64,000 nucleotides of DNA from Campylobacterales bacterium (GTDB lineage: Bacteria > Campylobacterota > Campylobacteria > Campylobacterales > Sulfurospirillaceae), in NCBI GenBank assembly GCA_016930915.1, contig JAFGFU010000019.1, forward strand, positions 1 through 64,000, in the 5' to 3' direction. The position numbers and the translations under genes are program-made. Positions 1-62,441 of this stretch are shown piece after piece; the first letter of the stretch is position 1, and each line of letters begins with the position of its first letter. The notes under the pieces were generated by a model. The model saw only the letters and a program-made list of their open reading frames with translations, did not search any database and was not told the DNA's origin.

Positions 1-87
1 ATCAGTTTCATCAGTTTCATCAGTTTCATCAGTTTCATCAGTTTCATCAGTTTCATCAGTTTCATCAGTTTCATCAGTTTCATCAGT
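1..87. repeat. 9-bp tandem repeat coding for Glu-Thr-Asp
   Basis: Nine exact copies of ATCAGTTTC plus six further bases run from the first base of the window, so the array continues to the left. On the minus strand each unit reads GAAACTGAT, Glu-Thr-Asp, in frame with the acidic protein. The unit length is a multiple of three, so slippage would change length without breaking the frame. Confidence 0.97.
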
Positions 88-1065
88 CAATGACATCTCA
101 AACTCCAACGACTCATCTTCTATTGGTGTTTCTTCAAAAGGTTCTTCTAACGATTCTTTTGGAAGTTTCCATTCCAAAGTATCTTCCCTTATATCCTCTA
201 ATTTATCTTCTTCTAATTCTTCTTTCTCGTTGGCATCATCGAGCAAAAATTCTTTCGTTTCTTTAAATTCATCATCTAAAAAACTCAAACTATCTTCTAG
301 TATCTCTTCTTCATCACTTTCATCTAACAATTGTTTAACTTCATCAATATCATCTTTATCTAAAACACAAGGAACAACATCATCAAATAAAAGGTCATCA
401 TTTTCACGAACTTTTGGCTCGTCTTCTTCTAAGTCAAAATTAAAATCCTCTAATTCTCCCTTAGACTCATTCTCTAAAGAAAACACATCTTCTTTTAAAG
501 AAACTTTTTCAATTTCCTCATCCATAGCAACAGCTTCATCTAAAAGTTCATCTTCAAATTTTATATTATCAAATTCATGCTGCTCTTCATCGTGAGGTAA
601 AAATGCATCATTATCATTATTTTCATTAACCAAAGGGCTCTCTTCCTCTGTTGTTTCCAATGCATCAATTTGGTCAATATCAAAATGTTTATCTTCCTCT
701 TCTTCATCGTCAAGGGTTAAATCATCACCTTCTTCTTTTTGACTACTCAAAACATTGCTAACTTTTTCAAGTAATACTAAAAAATCTGTCGGTAAAAAAG
801 GCTTTTCCAGAGAAACATTTACATATTCCGGTTTTTGAGCCCCTCTTTGACAAATATAAATACAATAATCACACCCTATATTCTCTTTGAGTTCATTTAA
901 GGCTGATTCATCATAAAGTTCATTATCGACTAAAATAACATCATAACTGCTAAGTGGGACCAATCCATAGTCGTCAAACTCATCTAACTCATGCCCAGCT
1001 TTTTCAGCACTTAGTTTGATTAATCTTGAAACAGCGGGATTATTATTGAGTAGTAACAGGCGCAT
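1..1065 (-). CDS. Highly acidic protein with an N-terminal pseudo-receiver domain (3' end outside window)
   Basis: The frame is open from an ATG at 1065 to the window edge (355 codons visible). Residues 1-105 look like a degenerate response-regulator receiver: hydrophobic beta-strand starts (MRLLLL), an Asp in YDVILVDNE at about residue 47, and a C-terminal LEKPF resembling the receiver Lys-Pro. The acidic pair normally found near the N-terminus is replaced by NNN, so phosphorylation is doubtful. After residue 105 the chain is almost all Glu/Asp/Leu/Ser and ends, in this window, in (Glu-Thr-Asp)n. It lies just downstream of fliR, as does a 'highly acidic protein' in C. jejuni (recalled synteny), so a flagellum-linked role is an inference. 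Possible -10 TATACT lies on the minus strand near 1100. Function unknown. Confidence 0.75.
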   Translation of the reverse strand, partial: MRLLLLNNNPAVSRLIKLSAEKAGHELDEFDDYGLVPLSSYDVILVDNELYDESALNELKENIGCDYCIYICQRGAQKPEYVNVSLEKPFLPTDFLVLLEKVSNVLSSQKEEGDDLTLDDEEEEDKHFDIDQIDALETTEEESPLVNENNDNDAFLPHDEEQHEFDNIKFEDELLDEAVAMDEEIEKVSLKEDVFSLENESKGELEDFNFDLEEDEPKVRENDDLLFDDVVPCVLDKDDIDEVKQLLDESDEEEILEDSLSFLDDEFKETKEFLLDDANEKEELEEDKLEDIREDTLEWKLPKESLEEPFEETPIEDESLEFEMSLTDETDETDETDETDETDETDETDETDETD

Positions 1066-55398: not shown

Positions 55399-57549
55399 AT
55401 GCTGTACGTTGAAACACGTGTGATTGCCTCTATAGTAGGCGTGGTGGATAGAACAATACGAGCAGCGATTGAGCGAGGCTCAAAACAATATCAGAGTATT
55501 AGTATTGAGGCAAAAGGAAGAGGCGGTAAAAAGCTACTCATTGCGATCGATGATGCAAAGCTAAGAGAGGCAATCGATAAGGGTATGGTTGATAAAGATG
55601 TTTGTATTTGGGATGAAACGGGAAGTCCTATAAAGGAAAATAGTTTCATTCTAAAATCAAATATAAAAGAAGCCACACTACAAGAGATTGCTCCTGATAT
55701 GACAACCTACCTCAATGCGACGCCTGAGCAAAGACAAAAAGCACTATTGCGCATGGAAGTCATTGAACTTTATGAACATAAAGATAAACGTCAAAGTGTT
55801 AAGGCATTTTTGAACGCTTTAGATGGCAAATTTGACTTACTTTCGATGAATGAAATGAAGCTTTTTCGCTACAAAAAGCTCGTTGAAAATGCCAAGAAAG
55901 AGGCAAAAAGCCCTTTGGAAGCACTGCTTGATAACAGGGGGAGGCAAAAAGGCACAATTTGCATGAGTGAAGAGATGCAAGAAATGGCGGTGCGTATGTT
56001 TGCACGTCGTGATAATCCTCTCAAAGTCGCCTCAATTTATCAAAACATACTCCATCAGTACAAAGATGCGATGTGCAGTTATGATGTGCTTAACAACTTC
56101 CTTAACCGTTGGAAGCGGGAGAACGCATCGCTCGCAGAGTTCGCCCAAAATGCTGACAAATGGAAGAACAACCGTCTCGCTGCCTTTGGAAGCAGTAGCG
56201 AAAAAGCAAAGTATCCCAATCACTTTTGGGAGCTTGACTCAACACCGTGCGACATCATCTGTAAAGATGGCAAGCGCTACGCCATCCTTGGTATGGTAGA
56301 TGTTTTTTCAAGACGTTGTACCTTTTGGGTGGATGAAAAATCAAGTAGCTATAGCATCTCACGTTTGCTTCGTAAAGCGATCTTGAAAATGGGTGTACCT
56401 GAACATGTGGTAGTGGACAACGGTAAGGACTACCAGTCAAATCACTTCGACTCAATCACATACAACCTTGGTGTACAGAAGGTAACAGTTCCACCGTTTA
56501 GCGGAGATATGAAGCCTCACATCGAGCGACTCTTTGGAACACTTAGTTCTCAGCTTTTTGAAGAGCTGGAGGGTTATATAGGGCATAGCGTAGCAGACCG
56601 ATCTGAGATAGAAAGCCGAAGAGGCTTTGCACACAAGATCGCCTCACAGGCGAAGTGGTATGAGCAAGCCAAAAAAGAAGAAAAGCGAACGTTCTGCAAT
56701 GCCTTAGCGATCAAAAAAGACAACCTAGGGCTTGAAGTAAAAGTGCCCGTTGATGCAGAAAAGCTACAGCAGATCATCGACGGATGGGTTGAGGGTATCT
56801 ACGAAAAAAGAGAACACAGTAGCATTGGCAAGACCCCATTAAAAAGATGGGCTGATACCTTTATGCCTGTAAAGAGCATCAGCGATCCGCGTGCGCTTGA
56901 CATCTTGCTTGGTGAAAGCTTTGAAAGGCGTGTCGGTAAGAAAGGCATACGGTTAAACGGTGCGCTTTATCAACACGTTAACTTGGCGTATCACATCGGG
57001 GAGATGGTACGCATCATGTGCGATGACAATATGGGGCATGTGTTTGTCTATAAGATGAACTATGAGCCTATTTGTATCGCGGAAGATTACGAGTACACGG
57101 GCAAAAGTAGAGCCGAACTTGCAGAGGGTAAACGTATCTCACACCGAATAGCGAGAGAATATGCCAGGTTGCTTGAGGAGTGGGAGGACATTAGCCGTAA
57201 GGTTGATCCAAACATTCGCCACCGCATTGACGCATCTTTGAAAGAAAACTCTCCACTCATTGTGACAAAGATTGTCTCAAAGGTAACAGAGGTCAGCAGT
57301 GCTGTGATGGAGGCATCCAAAGAGTTTGCACGACAGGATGCAGAGATTGCAGAAACTTCAAACGTCATGAACATGGAAGGCGAAAAACTGCTTCCATCAG
57401 GTCGACCAGCATTTACACAACTGGTAGATCGTTTCATTTGGGATTTAGAACACGACACAGTGGATGAGTCAACAAATAAGTTGAAAGAAAAACAACCAGA
57501 CTTATGGGAGATTGCATCCAAAGAGTTTGCACGTAAAAAGGTTGGATAG
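55399..57549 (+). CDS. MuA-type DDE transposase
   Basis: A 716-aa transposase. Order: N-terminal DNA-binding part (about 1-90), helical inner domains (about 100-270), an rve/RNase H-like core with Asp280 (HFWELDSTPCD), Asp340 (VVVDNGKDY) and Glu376 (KPHIERLFGTL), a beta-barrel region (about 480-570) and a C-terminal helical tail that should contact the MuB-type ATPase. It cuts and joins the phage ends during integration and replicative transposition. The ATPase gene follows after 68 bp. Confidence 0.93.
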   Translation: MLYVETRVIASIVGVVDRTIRAAIERGSKQYQSISIEAKGRGGKKLLIAIDDAKLREAIDKGMVDKDVCIWDETGSPIKENSFILKSNIKEATLQEIAPDMTTYLNATPEQRQKALLRMEVIELYEHKDKRQSVKAFLNALDGKFDLLSMNEMKLFRYKKLVENAKKEAKSPLEALLDNRGRQKGTICMSEEMQEMAVRMFARRDNPLKVASIYQNILHQYKDAMCSYDVLNNFLNRWKRENASLAEFAQNADKWKNNRLAAFGSSSEKAKYPNHFWELDSTPCDIICKDGKRYAILGMVDVFSRRCTFWVDEKSSSYSISRLLRKAILKMGVPEHVVVDNGKDYQSNHFDSITYNLGVQKVTVPPFSGDMKPHIERLFGTLSSQLFEELEGYIGHSVADRSEIESRRGFAHKIASQAKWYEQAKKEEKRTFCNALAIKKDNLGLEVKVPVDAEKLQQIIDGWVEGIYEKREHSSIGKTPLKRWADTFMPVKSISDPRALDILLGESFERRVGKKGIRLNGALYQHVNLAYHIGEMVRIMCDDNMGHVFVYKMNYEPICIAEDYEYTGKSRAELAEGKRISHRIAREYARLLEEWEDISRKVDPNIRHRIDASLKENSPLIVTKIVSKVTEVSSAVMEASKEFARQDAEIAETSNVMNMEGEKLLPSGRPAFTQLVDRFIWDLEHDTVDESTNKLKEKQPDLWEIASKEFARKKVG

Positions 57550-57617: not shown

Positions 57618-58328
57618 ATGCGTGAAGAGTTTATACAAACACGTAATTACATCAAATTAGTGGAGTCTTTCGCAAACCTCAAAAATCTACCTGAAACTGC
57701 ACCGAGAATGGGGCTAGCGTTTGGTGATTATGGGCTAGGCAAGACCGTAGGATTAGAAAGGGTTGCAGCACAGGAGAACGCTATTTTATTGCGAGCGGTG
57801 CAGACATGGTCAAAGAGCTCTTTGCTTATTAAACTGTGTACGGAGCTAGGGTTAGACACCAAAGGGCATAGCTCCATGATGTATGAGCGAGTGAGGGAGT
57901 CCTTTATATTGGAATCTCGCATTGTTATTATCGACGAAGTAGATGCTTTATTGAAAGCGGAGAAGTTATCCGTCTTAGAGCTTTTAAGAGACCTCCACGA
58001 TGAGACACAAATCATCATATTCTTTGTTGGCATGGAAGAAGCCAATGCCAAGTTTAAGAAGTATCGCCACTACTATAGCCGTATTGTAGAGCTTGTCAAG
58101 TTTGAGGGAATTATTTTAAAAGACATTGAGAGCTTTTGTGCGCTAAGCGACGTAAAGATCGAAACAGACTTGATACATTTTTTTGTAAAACGGTATCCAA
58201 ATCTACGACAGATAAAAGTCTTACTGCTTCGTTTAGAAAATTGGTGCGAAATGAATGGATTAAAGAGTGTTGATCTTAATTGCTTTAAAAAAAGTGGGGT
58301 TGAACATGGACACAACACGCAAAATTAG
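57618..58328 (+). CDS. MuB-type transposition target ATPase
   Basis: A 236-aa AAA ATPase with Walker A GDYGLGKTVGLE (about residues 37-48), Walker B IVIIDEVDALL and a sensor-like FFVGMEE. It should bind target DNA, stimulate the transposase and give target immunity. SD AAAGGAG lies 7 bp before the ATG. It lacks the N-terminal HTH of Mu gpB; the short length matches Mu-like elements of other phyla. Confidence 0.9.
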   Translation: MREEFIQTRNYIKLVESFANLKNLPETAPRMGLAFGDYGLGKTVGLERVAAQENAILLRAVQTWSKSSLLIKLCTELGLDTKGHSSMMYERVRESFILESRIVIIDEVDALLKAEKLSVLELLRDLHDETQIIIFFVGMEEANAKFKKYRHYYSRIVELVKFEGIILKDIESFCALSDVKIETDLIHFFVKRYPNLRQIKVLLLRLENWCEMNGLKSVDLNCFKKSGVEHGHNTQN

Positions 58329-59487: not shown

Positions 59488-60120
59488 ATGTTTTTAAACG
59501 AGAGGCAAATGTGGCGAAATAAGGAGGGAAACTTTGTACACCCTGACATAGTCCCCATCGATAAGCAACTGGAGGATGAGCTTGTCATCAAGCTTGTAGG
59601 TGGAGCAAAAGAGTTACAGAGTAACTTGGCAAAGTTTAAAGCTGAGGCGTTTGAACAATGCGAGTCATTTGTTGATTTGCTCAGACAAAAGTACAACATG
59701 GATCGCTTGGCAAAGAGTGAAAATGGCTCGGTGACATTGAAAGCATTTGATGGAACGATGGAAGTGCAAATCCAAGTGGCTAAACTCATCAGCTTCGATC
59801 AAAAACTAGCTCTTGCCAAAGAGCTACTTGATGAATACTTCACAGAGAAAACAGAACATGCAGACCCTGAGATTAAAACACTCATCATGAGAGCGTTTGA
59901 AGTCAAGAACGGGAAGGTAGATGCGAAGCAGATTATCTCTTTGAAGAGCTACAACATCGAGCATCCTAAATGGCTTGAAGCAATGAAGATGATCGATGAT
60001 GCAACGGAGATCGCTGGAACAAAGAGCTATATCCGTTTTAAAGAACGTAAGAATGGCAAGATCGATGGGGAGCTATGCAACATCACGCTTAACATTGCAG
60101 CCATTGAATTAGAAGATTGA
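59488..60120 (+). CDS. DUF3164-family phage protein
   Basis: A 210-aa protein recognised as DUF3164, a Mu-like phage early family (Mu gp08 region): MWRNKEGNFVHPDIVPIDKQLEDELV, FEQCESFVDLLRQKY and KSYNIEHPKWLEAMKMIDDA near the C-terminus. Function unknown. AAAGGAG precedes the ATG. Confidence 0.82.
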   Translation: MFLNERQMWRNKEGNFVHPDIVPIDKQLEDELVIKLVGGAKELQSNLAKFKAEAFEQCESFVDLLRQKYNMDRLAKSENGSVTLKAFDGTMEVQIQVAKLISFDQKLALAKELLDEYFTEKTEHADPEIKTLIMRAFEVKNGKVDAKQIISLKSYNIEHPKWLEAMKMIDDATEIAGTKSYIRFKERKNGKIDGELCNITLNIAAIELED

Positions 60121-60128
60121 TTTAACAG

Positions 60129-60148
60129 CCTCCACATGCGTGTGGGGG
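60129..60148. terminator. Hairpin after the DUF3164 gene
   Basis: CCTCCACA / TGTGGGGG stem with one G-T wobble and loop TGCG, 9 bp after the stop. No T-run, so termination is uncertain. It directly precedes the inverted-repeat cassette. Confidence 0.45.
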
Positions 60149-60175
60149 TGATTAAGTTAACGATATTTATACACC

Positions 60176-60231
60176 TTGCGACACTTAAACCTCGCAAAAC
60201 AGGGAAGTGTCGCAGGTGTATAAAGTGTATA
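60176..60231. repeat. Left 56-bp inverted repeat of the internal cassette
   Basis: Matches the right copy (61515-61570) in reverse orientation at 54 of 56 positions. It contains its own inner dyad GCGACACTT...AAGTGTCGC. On this side the dyad extends outward to TTTATACACC...GGTGTATAAA. Confidence 0.95.
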
Positions 60232-60254
60232 GGGAACCAAAAGAAAGGGATAAA

Positions 60255-61166
60255 ATGTTTAAATTTTTAAAGCCAAACAGACTACTACACCTCGATAATC
60301 TCAATGAAAAGACAAGCTTTCTCATCGACTCGTTTATTCCTGAGCAAAATATTACAATGTGGTATTGTCGCGAAAATCAAGGGAAGACCGCTCTTTCATT
60401 GGGGGTTGCTAAGTATATACTAGACCATTGTGAAATTAAAATGATGGTTTATTTAGATATGGATAATCCGCGAAAGAACCTTTCTGATAGAAATTTAAAA
60501 GATACCATCGGGAAGTATGAAAACTTTCATTTTATTCATCGCTCAACTATAGACATAACGCCTTATGAACTGCTCAAAGATATTGGAGCTGAAGCGTATG
60601 GAAGCAATTATAAAAAGTGCGTGTTCATATTTGATTCTATTCGGAATTTTGTAGATGGTGACATAAACAATGATACGAAAGTCAGAGCTATTATGGAGAT
60701 TATGATGAATATCCGTGAGGCAGGCGGAACAGTCATAATCAACCACCATACCACTAAAAATGGAAAAGGGATTGAAGGATCAGGGGATTTTGCTAAAAGC
60801 TTGGATAATTTGTACTATATGCAACAGCTTTATCGAACCAATGAAGAACTTGCTTGTATTCTAAGTATTGAGAAAGAGCGTGCAGATATTACAGAGTCAA
60901 GCTTTGTCATAAAAAAAGAAACGCTTGAGCTGATACGATTAGACCCTGAAGTGAGTAAAATAACGATTGAAGATAAAGCTTTTATAGATTCGGTAAAGAG
61001 GGTTATAAAAGATAAAGGCGATTGTATTAATCAATCCAAGCTTCTTGAGGCGTTAGGCTATGCAAAAGGAGATAGAACTCAAATTCTTAAATTAGAAAAA
61101 TACATCGGGATGTTTTGGAAATGTGCTGATGGCAAAAATCGACAAAAGATTTTCAGCCTGATTTGA
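60255..61166 (+). CDS. RepA-like (AAA_25/RecA-fold) ATPase
   Basis: A 303-aa P-loop protein. Walker A is shifted from consensus (TMWYCRENQGKTALSLGVA; Gly-Lys-Thr kept), Walker B is CVFIFDSIRNF, and VIINHHTTKNGKGIEGSGDF matches the 'His-x-x-Lys-x-Gly...GS' motif 3 of RepA/DnaB-type hexameric ATPases. A C-terminal winged-helix-like part (about 240-300) follows. RepA of RSF1010-type plasmids is a replicative helicase. ATG 60255 has AAAGGG 5 bp upstream and is preferred to ATG 60207, which lies in the inverted repeat. Confidence 0.75.
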   Translation: MFKFLKPNRLLHLDNLNEKTSFLIDSFIPEQNITMWYCRENQGKTALSLGVAKYILDHCEIKMMVYLDMDNPRKNLSDRNLKDTIGKYENFHFIHRSTIDITPYELLKDIGAEAYGSNYKKCVFIFDSIRNFVDGDINNDTKVRAIMEIMMNIREAGGTVIINHHTTKNGKGIEGSGDFAKSLDNLYYMQQLYRTNEELACILSIEKERADITESSFVIKKETLELIRLDPEVSKITIEDKAFIDSVKRVIKDKGDCINQSKLLEALGYAKGDRTQILKLEKYIGMFWKCADGKNRQKIFSLI

Positions 61167-61195
61167 CTATGATAAAAACAAAAAAAGGAGAGCCA

Positions 61196-61501
61196 ATGTT
61201 CGATAAAAAACCAATGTGTGAGATATGTGGAAAGAAAGAAGCTACACATTTTACGCTGGAGAGACCCGATACTACTGATAATGCTGTTATAAAAATGGAA
61301 GGGAAATGGAGGTTTGTGTGTCAGGATGAAGATGGGTATAACGAATTTACACATATTTCAATAGAGAGATTTTTTAAAACTCCATCAGCCACAGTTGACT
61401 GGATGGCGCATACGCATGAAAAAGATTGGATGAACTGGGATAATTTTATGGATATGATACATAGATTTCGCACAGCAACTGGCTCTTTCTTCAAATCTTA
61501 A
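61196..61501 (+). CDS. Small Cys-motif protein of the cassette
   Basis: A 101-aa protein with CEICGKKEATHF near the N-terminus and a further Cys/Asp pair (RFVCQDEDGYNEF), probably one zinc site, and a Trp-rich C-terminal half (DWMAHTHEKDWMNWDNFMDM). SD AAAGGAG lies 6 bp before ATG 61196; an ATG at 61163 would overlap the ATPase stop. Unrecognised. It ends 14 bp before the right inverted repeat. Confidence 0.65.
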   Translation: MFDKKPMCEICGKKEATHFTLERPDTTDNAVIKMEGKWRFVCQDEDGYNEFTHISIERFFKTPSATVDWMAHTHEKDWMNWDNFMDMIHRFRTATGSFFKS

Positions 61502-61514
61502 ATTCCTCCTCCCT

Positions 61515-61570
61515 TATACACTTTATACACCTGCGACACTTCCCTATTTTACGAGGTTTAAGTGTCGCAA
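61515..61570. repeat. Right 56-bp inverted repeat of the internal cassette
   Basis: Reverse-complement partner of 60176-60231 (two mismatches). Begins with the doubled unit TATACAC-TT-TATACAC and holds the dyad TGCGACACTT...AAGTGTCGCA with an 18-nt loop. Confidence 0.95.
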
Positions 61571-61612
61571 ACACATTACGACACCCACCTGTTTCTCAAA
61601 ATCAACCACACA

Positions 61613-61669
61613 TACCACACGACCACAATACATACGAAAGTGCCATCAATAGCTTATTTGCGTGTGGTA
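61613..61669. promoter_or_regulatory. Spaced dyad upstream of the GemA-like gene
   Basis: TACCACACG and CGTGTGGTA, perfect 9-bp arms 39 bp apart, in the gap before the GemA-like gene. Operator or leader hairpin. Confidence 0.4.
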
Positions 61670-61700
61670 GGTATGGTAGATACCCTTAAAAGGACACACC

Positions 61701-62105
61701 ATGACCCCAAAACAATTAAAAACTCACAAAAGCCTCATCACTCAAGTACATACATCAACGCGTTATAAGAACTACTATAAAGAGAACAGGGATGCATACG
61801 AAGAGATGCTTTACAATGCTTTTGGTAAACGCTCATCTAAGGCATTACATGTAACAGAGCTCATCCAATTGGTGAGTTATCTTAACATGCAGACAGATGC
61901 GTTGCCAGTGTTTCAGTTTAAATGTTGCACTCCCTCTCAAGCGTGGAAGATCACAACCCTTTGGGAGCAAAAGGCGAGAGATAAAAGCGTTCTAGCACTG
62001 CTTAGCTTTTGCAAGCGCATCACCAAAAGAGAGTGCGAAAGCATCGCAACTCTAAGAGTCGACGAAGCAAAGAACATACTGATAGCACTTCAAAAGCTTC
62101 AATAA
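61701..62105 (+). CDS. GemA/gp16-like (DUF1018) protein
   Basis: A 134-aa basic protein with the GemA-type layout: N-terminal LITQVHTSTRYKNYYKENRDAYEEML, AFGKRSSKALHVTELIQLVSYL, and a C-terminal helical half. In Mu, GemA modulates host gene expression and DNA relaxation. Match is by pattern and position before the Mor-like gene. The palindrome copy is read as Leu-His-Val-Thr. Confidence 0.7.
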   Translation: MTPKQLKTHKSLITQVHTSTRYKNYYKENRDAYEEMLYNAFGKRSSKALHVTELIQLVSYLNMQTDALPVFQFKCCTPSQAWKITTLWEQKARDKSVLALLSFCKRITKRECESIATLRVDEAKNILIALQKLQ

Positions 62106-62180: not shown

Positions 62181-62441
62181 ATGTCAATCACCAACAAAGA
62201 TATTTTCGAAGACTTTACAAGACGCATCAGGCAAGGTGCAACTGATGAAGAGATAATGCGAGCGTATGGTGGTATGCCTATCTATGTCCCCTCTTGGTGT
62301 ATGAATGGTCGCAATGATGAGATCATCAAAGACTACACCGAAAACAAACTCTCCCCCAAAGAACTGAAACTCAAATACAACCTTAGCCTCAGCCGTGTCT
62401 ATGAGATCATCGGCGAGGCTAGAGAGCCATCCCTCTTTTAA
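62181..62441 (+). CDS. Mor-like middle transcription activator (short form)
   Basis: An 86-aa protein whose C-terminal half (NDEIIKDYTENKLSPKELKLKYNLSLSRVYEII) matches the Mor/C HTH of Mu-like phages; the N-terminal dimerisation part (GATDEEIMRAYGGMPIYVPSW) is also Mor-like, but the protein is about two thirds of the length of Mu Mor. It should switch on middle/late genes. It overlaps the convergent head gene by 4 bp. Confidence 0.78.
   Translation: MSITNKDIFEDFTRRIRQGATDEEIMRAYGGMPIYVPSWCMNGRNDEIIKDYTENKLSPKELKLKYNLSLSRVYEIIGEAREPSLF

Follow-up and report, generated by a model that had tools for sequence, protein, structure and literature searches.

A cassette nested in a Mu-like prophage of a Sulfurospirillum genome, in which two inverted arrays of 9-bp iterons enclose an ATPase gene, is best read as one version of an exchangeable ATPase-plus-iteron module of Campylobacterota Mu-like phages. 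In this module, a helicase-type ATPase would act at its own iteron sites in a replication-type role, a proposal on which our own judgement is evenly balanced. The window, that is the whole 64,000-nucleotide stretch of DNA that was analysed, carries homologues of MuA, MuB, DUF3164, GemA and Mor, and the nearest named relative of the source genome is Sulfurospirillum sp. UBA1314. Profile matches confirmed the early-region position between DUF3164 and GemA given in an earlier note on this DNA. The interior of the cassette consists of the ATPase gene and a gene for a small Cys-containing protein (Table 1); as that note had stated, it holds no transposase, and no recombinase was found within it either.

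Table 1. Features of the cassette and of its host prophage (positions in the window)
Feature	Position	Strand	Remarks
MuA homologue, host prophage	55399-57549	+	profile match
MuB homologue, host prophage	57618-58328	+	profile match
DUF3164 gene, left neighbour of the cassette	59488-60120	+	E = 5e-63
Conserved hairpin element (ATTTAACA-stem-GATTAAGT), 5' of the slot, outside the cassette	60119-60163	+	
Left iteron array	60166-60234	+	contains the left 59-nt arm, 60176-60234
ATPase gene, 303 aa	60255-61166	+	phrog_6357, AAA_25
Small Cys-protein gene, 101 aa, accessory	61196-61501	+	
Right iteron array (59-nt arm), the left array inverted	61512-61570	-	
Second iteron array, other type (ACCACAC...)	61601-61681	+	
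GemA gene, right neighbour of the cassette	61701-62105	+	E = 5e-11
Mor-family activator gene	62181-62441	+	

The inverted repeat, described earlier as 56 bp long with two mismatches, is real: that description fits the core of two 59-nt arms, which are 95% complementary and lie 1277 nt apart. Both arms are short arrays with mirror symmetry, built of the 9-bp units TATACACTT, TATACACCT and GCGACACTT, an 18-nt loop and the inverted unit(s). The left array reads TATACACC-TT-GCGACACTT, the 18-nt loop, then AAGTGTCGC-AGGTGTATA-AAGTGTATA, and the right one TATACACTT TATACACCT GCGACACTT, the loop, then AAGTGTCGC. The self-folding and the TATACAC repeats attributed to the arms were also recovered, since GCGACACTT/AAGTGTCGC and TATACAC are present in each arm and the DNA folds reach -18.7 kcal/mol on the left (z = -6.0) and -9.7 kcal/mol on the right (z = -4.6), beaten or equalled by no shuffle in either case. 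A word search of the 64 kb found TATACAC and GCGACACTT confined to the two arms, and no further copy of the arm exists in its own genome. Exact arm copies were found only in L003 among the viral contigs searched, and an arm 20-mer with three mismatches allowed matched the relatives, UBA1314 excepted, at about the rate of a reversed control pattern. The arms are shared with two independent assemblies (Sulfurospirillum UBA1314 and IMG/VR 3300028549_003087), and an assembly artefact is therefore excluded. At window positions 1-90 there is also a tandem 9-bp repeat, ATCAGTTTC, apparently a coding repeat and unrelated to the prophage arrays.

The enclosed gene had been called a RepA-type ATPase, and the profile searches agree. 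By its matches, the protein is a member of AAA_25 (Pfam, E = 2e-8, 34.5 bits against a gathering cut-off of 27; relatives score 30.6-47.9) and of phrog_6357 (E = 2e-74 over residues 2-297, nearly the full length), a family annotated as phage ATPase of unknown function. It carries the Walker A and Walker B motifs QGKT and IFDS. Its AlphaFold model (pLDDT 89) has a RecA fold followed by a C-terminal winged helix (about residues 238-302, H-E-H-H-E-E, pLDDT about 90). The closest folds in the PDB are RAD51, RecA, RadA, KaiC and Twinkle, and among viral folds AAA/Prim-Pol replication proteins match best; the sequence search for a close solved homologue returned only weak RecA/RAD51-type matches. 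Homologues with 29-38% identity occur in the same region of other Campylobacterota Mu-like phages, mostly directly before GemA, a distribution that marks the ATPase as a regular and, for the most part, fixed component of their early region. The idea of a captured replication module with iterons was the closest of the earlier guesses: the winged-helix RecA-type ATPase, the 9-bp iterons and the folds shared with replication proteins speak for it. The ATPase being a regular early phage gene, the cassette as a whole is not a foreign insertion. That a foreign cassette had inserted once before GemA was likewise ruled out, as homologous ATPases stand there in related phages.

The DNA 3' of the ATPase stop codon was inspected at 44 loci, which were sorted by eye and then scored against shuffles. 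Behind the ATPase gene, 26 of the 44 have an iteron array mirrored around a short loop; the remaining 18, several of them directly before GemA, have none. For 21 of the 26 array loci, stem length, period-9 match or both reached p <= 0.02, and the weaker L085, L086, L088, L105 and L003 were retained as array loci because they have close relatives with clear arrays. Among the 18 array-less loci the period-9 score singled out none, and the stem score by itself only the distant L119 and L122; this split is descriptive, the classes having been set before scoring but from the same sequence. Among periods 4-24, period 9 is dominant, with a ratio of 1.64 versus 1.25 for the next, at 18 (19 arrays from different loci). 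The iteron units differ between phage lineages: TATACACTT in the window, ACCACACGN in L085-L088, L097 and L098, ACAACCGCT and similar units in L099 and L102-L105, ACAACTCTT in L057, GAAACACTG in L076 and L077, ACAACTACT in L079 and L080, ACAACACGT in L083 and GCATCACCT in L056. Where the ATPase gene lies elsewhere (behind GemA in L079 and L080, behind Mor in L003), the array lies alongside it; by this linkage the array belongs to the ATPase gene. Our literature search found no paper on Campylobacterota Mu-like phages with such repeats. For phrog_6357, a family of unknown function, the array beside the gene is a probable partner.

The arrangement of the repeats bears on how they would be read. 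In the ACCACAC arrays the cores are equally spaced in both arms and the spacers between them are not complementary; because the core spacing is kept while the spacers are unpaired, this pattern favours protein sites in duplex DNA over a selected hairpin. Such sites could also be operators: bound by the ATPase, or by a small regulator of the phage, they would serve to regulate that protein's own gene together with the GemA-Mor genes behind it, and replication would not be involved. This is the main rival to a replication-type module, and we regard it as rather unlikely. It is in keeping with the left arm standing directly before the ATPase start, with the arrays before GemA, with ACCACAC cores that are kept between variable spacers, and with BldC, a winged-helix regulator of which one protomer binds each 9-bp direct repeat (PMC5859096). 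BldC shares with our case the 9-bp period of head-to-tail sites and the winged helix, but it is a free 68-residue regulator without an ATPase, whereas here the winged helix is fused to one, and this motor would be superfluous at an operator. Moreover, the array mostly lies behind the ATPase gene rather than before it and moves with the ATPase and not with GemA, and a search of the arms for promoter-like sites, made with a sigma-70 pattern, found none.

A role of the hairpins as RNA, be it as structures of the 3' or 5' untranslated region, in termination or in stability, is quite unlikely in our estimate. Several arrays do form perfect stems of 17-26 bp directly 3' of the stop codon, and because the stems of L057, L080 and L110 are long and perfect, the hairpin form may also matter. 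However, the ACCACAC spacers do not pair, RNA stems would not be expected to show a 9-bp tandem period, terminator calling gave no T-run terminator at the arms, and Rfam gave no match within 59-62.5 kb. A different element, a short hairpin with conserved flanks, ATTTAACA-stem-GATTrAGT, immediately precedes the ATPase/GemA slot in the window and also in L055, L056, L076, L077, L003, L083, L085-L088, L097, L098 and L107, as well as in L082 (Campylobacter phage CAM-P21). All 14 sequences tested keep five of its stem pairs; at four of these both sides vary, and U-G pairs are frequent. Because the pairs are kept despite two-sided changes, this slot hairpin is probably a structured RNA; it has no Rfam match.

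The window belongs to a clade in which the array is doubled. Five ATPases, those of the window, of Sulfurospirillum UBA1314 (L055) and of three viral contigs (L003, L083, L125), form one branch with support 100/99, and each of the five genes stands between two arrays, the front copy being inverted. At the other 21 array loci the array lies only behind the ATPase gene, and their upstream period-9 scores are at background, save one value for L132 (p = 0.013, no stem). The two arms of a phage, loop included, are 95% alike in the window, 97% in UBA1314, 93% in L083 and 83% in L125, the right arm of L003 having drifted from the left (74% alike). The window, L083 and L125 arm types differ strongly from one another: window-type against L083-type arms score 12, which equals the 99th percentile of shuffles (12), compared with 47-56 within the window, UBA1314, L083 and L125. 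Being alike within a phage and unlike between types, the arms have changed together, so that either one protein reads both arms or the arms convert each other. Under a replication-type module joint change would be expected, because one protein would read both arms.

The place of the unit in these phages is informative about mobility. Four of the five clade members have it in the usual ATPase slot before GemA. In L003 it has relocated as a unit: the gene with both arms sits between Mor and a convergent gene, the GemA slot of the same phage lacks it, and L085-L088 are empty at the corresponding place. The relocated unit is flanked on both sides by ACCCCTCA, a repetition that may reflect duplication of the target or may simply serve to preserve the overlapping ends of two genes. 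A plain transposon was ruled out as a reading of the inverted-repeat unit. The earlier suggestion of a non-autonomous mobile cassette, with the hairpins as ends and an unknown recombinase or transposase acting in trans, draws on this one case and on units bounded by inverted arms, also in L083 and L125; we nevertheless consider it unlikely. The ATPase is mostly a fixed early gene, the sites in the window, UBA1314 and L083 show no visible target duplication, there is no recombinase inside and a single copy in the genome, most relatives have a single array behind the gene, and the duplication in L003 may just preserve the two gene ends. In the proposed comparison of related Mu-like prophages for an empty site, L085-L088 proved empty at the L003 site, and the pre-GemA slot was found to hold homologous ATPases. 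A further reading, quite improbable in our view, would combine both roles: the mirrored iteron hairpins would be binding sites as well as the ends of a mobile unit, and, through pairing of the two flanking sites by the ATPase, the unit would be copied or would move from one phage site to another and its two arms would stay similar, as a replicon-like cassette in Mu-like phages.

Traces of module exchange are visible in the slot itself. Just before GemA the window has the ACCACAC-type array of Table 1, similar to the arrays behind the ATPase of L085-L088, L097 and L098; G021 likewise has an ACCACAC-type array before GemA, and UBA1314 has none. The window copy scores 15 against that of L087, a modest likeness given a null mean of 7.4 and a highest value of 16 in 500 shuffles; against that of G021 it scores higher, at 21. 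L104 has a second array, resembling that of L099. The window copy, apparently orphaned, is probably the remnant of an earlier module, and such orphan arrays before GemA suggest that earlier modules were replaced. Comparing the window with UBA1314, the arms are 97-98% identical and the ATPase gene ends and the Cys gene nearly identical, versus about 85% identity in the middle of the ATPase gene, a mosaic that therefore points to recombination. With its lineage-specific iterons and orphan arrays, the slot is a natural archive of how proteins and their sites evolve together and of how modules are exchanged. In the second prophage of G021 (L078, about 900-1190), the DNA before a truncated GemA resembles, as judged by eye, the end of an IS3-type transposase gene, which would interrupt this prophage.

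Several known systems resemble parts of the module. The RSF1010 RepA-type helicases have a similar size, about 300 aa, and like them the ATPase belongs to AAA_25; unlike RSF1010 RepA, it has a C-terminal winged helix, and no RepC or RepB' partner was identified. The RSF1010 iterons are read by RepC, not by RepA. P4 alpha, which binds origin repeats through a winged helix (as noted in PMC4234260), shares with the ATPase a motor domain joined to a C-terminal winged helix and short repeats as predicted site. It differs in its Toprim primase, the protein here having the RecA-fold motor and the winged helix only, and in that our case is a transposing phage with mirrored 9-bp iteron arrays at the gene's own ends. 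In pRN1, a stem-loop behind the replication gene, conserved in form and poorly in sequence, is required for replication (PMC4234260). As for pRN1 ORF904 and phage BIP-1 (PMC4234260), the stem-loop here lies directly behind the gene (26/44 loci), its sequence divergent and its form kept, and as in ORF904 the protein ends in a winged helix. Unlike ORF904, a Prim-Pol and SF3 helicase with an origin devoid of iterons, the ATPase has a RecA fold and iterons, and unlike pRN1 the window clade has a second array copy before the gene. Because the defining primase and SF3 domains are absent, the ATPase is not a P4 alpha- or pRN1-type protein, though its mode of action may still be like theirs.

By analogy with these systems, we infer that the winged helix of the ATPase would bind the 9-bp iterons flanking its own gene, that the protein would assemble on them as an oligomer and that the assembled motor would open the DNA or load replication proteins, as an origin-binding helicase with cis sites would (cf. 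P4 alpha and pRN1 ORF904). In the window clade the site would be doubled, the gene being framed by two copies in opposite orientation, and modules of different iteron specificities would replace one another in the pre-GemA slot, as plasmid replicons do. If the arrays load a helicase, Campylobacterota Mu-like phages would possess, in addition to transposition, an element for replication at a specific site. Several points count against a replication module or qualify it. First, Mu-like phages replicate by transposition and an origin is unnecessary. Second, the 303-aa ATPase has no primase domain and no adjoining primase gene was identified. Third, 18/44 relatives lack the array, which is therefore dispensable in some ATPase-bearing phages. 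Fourth, the two arms of L003 are only 74% alike. The partner reading the iterons could also be a protein other than the ATPase.

The earlier note had further proposed a phage satellite, for which no support was found, and a phage-borne defence or counter-defence pair formed by the ATPase and the Cys protein. The latter would suit a small accessory gene adjoining the ATPase in a variable early slot, and we give it hardly any credence: PADLOC returned no match, the ATPase belongs to the normal gene set of these phages, and most relatives lack the Cys gene. For this last reason the two proteins do not form a system as had been claimed, and the Cys protein was ruled out as a core part. The gene occurs only in the window, UBA1314 and L003 (3/5 of the two-sided clade), and by this distribution its product is accessory. 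The 101-aa protein contains one CxxC and one more Cys; its structure model is poor (pLDDT 46) and unusable, so that the zinc-like character given to it earlier is at most putative, profile searches gave no convincing family match, and no relatives were found in phage or plasmid records. A distant, weak relative occurs in another context in G322 (L061, 1432-1704). The CxxC end is absent from this relative, and the conserved part is therefore suggested to be the C-terminal SPxSxxDWxAHxxEKxW region.
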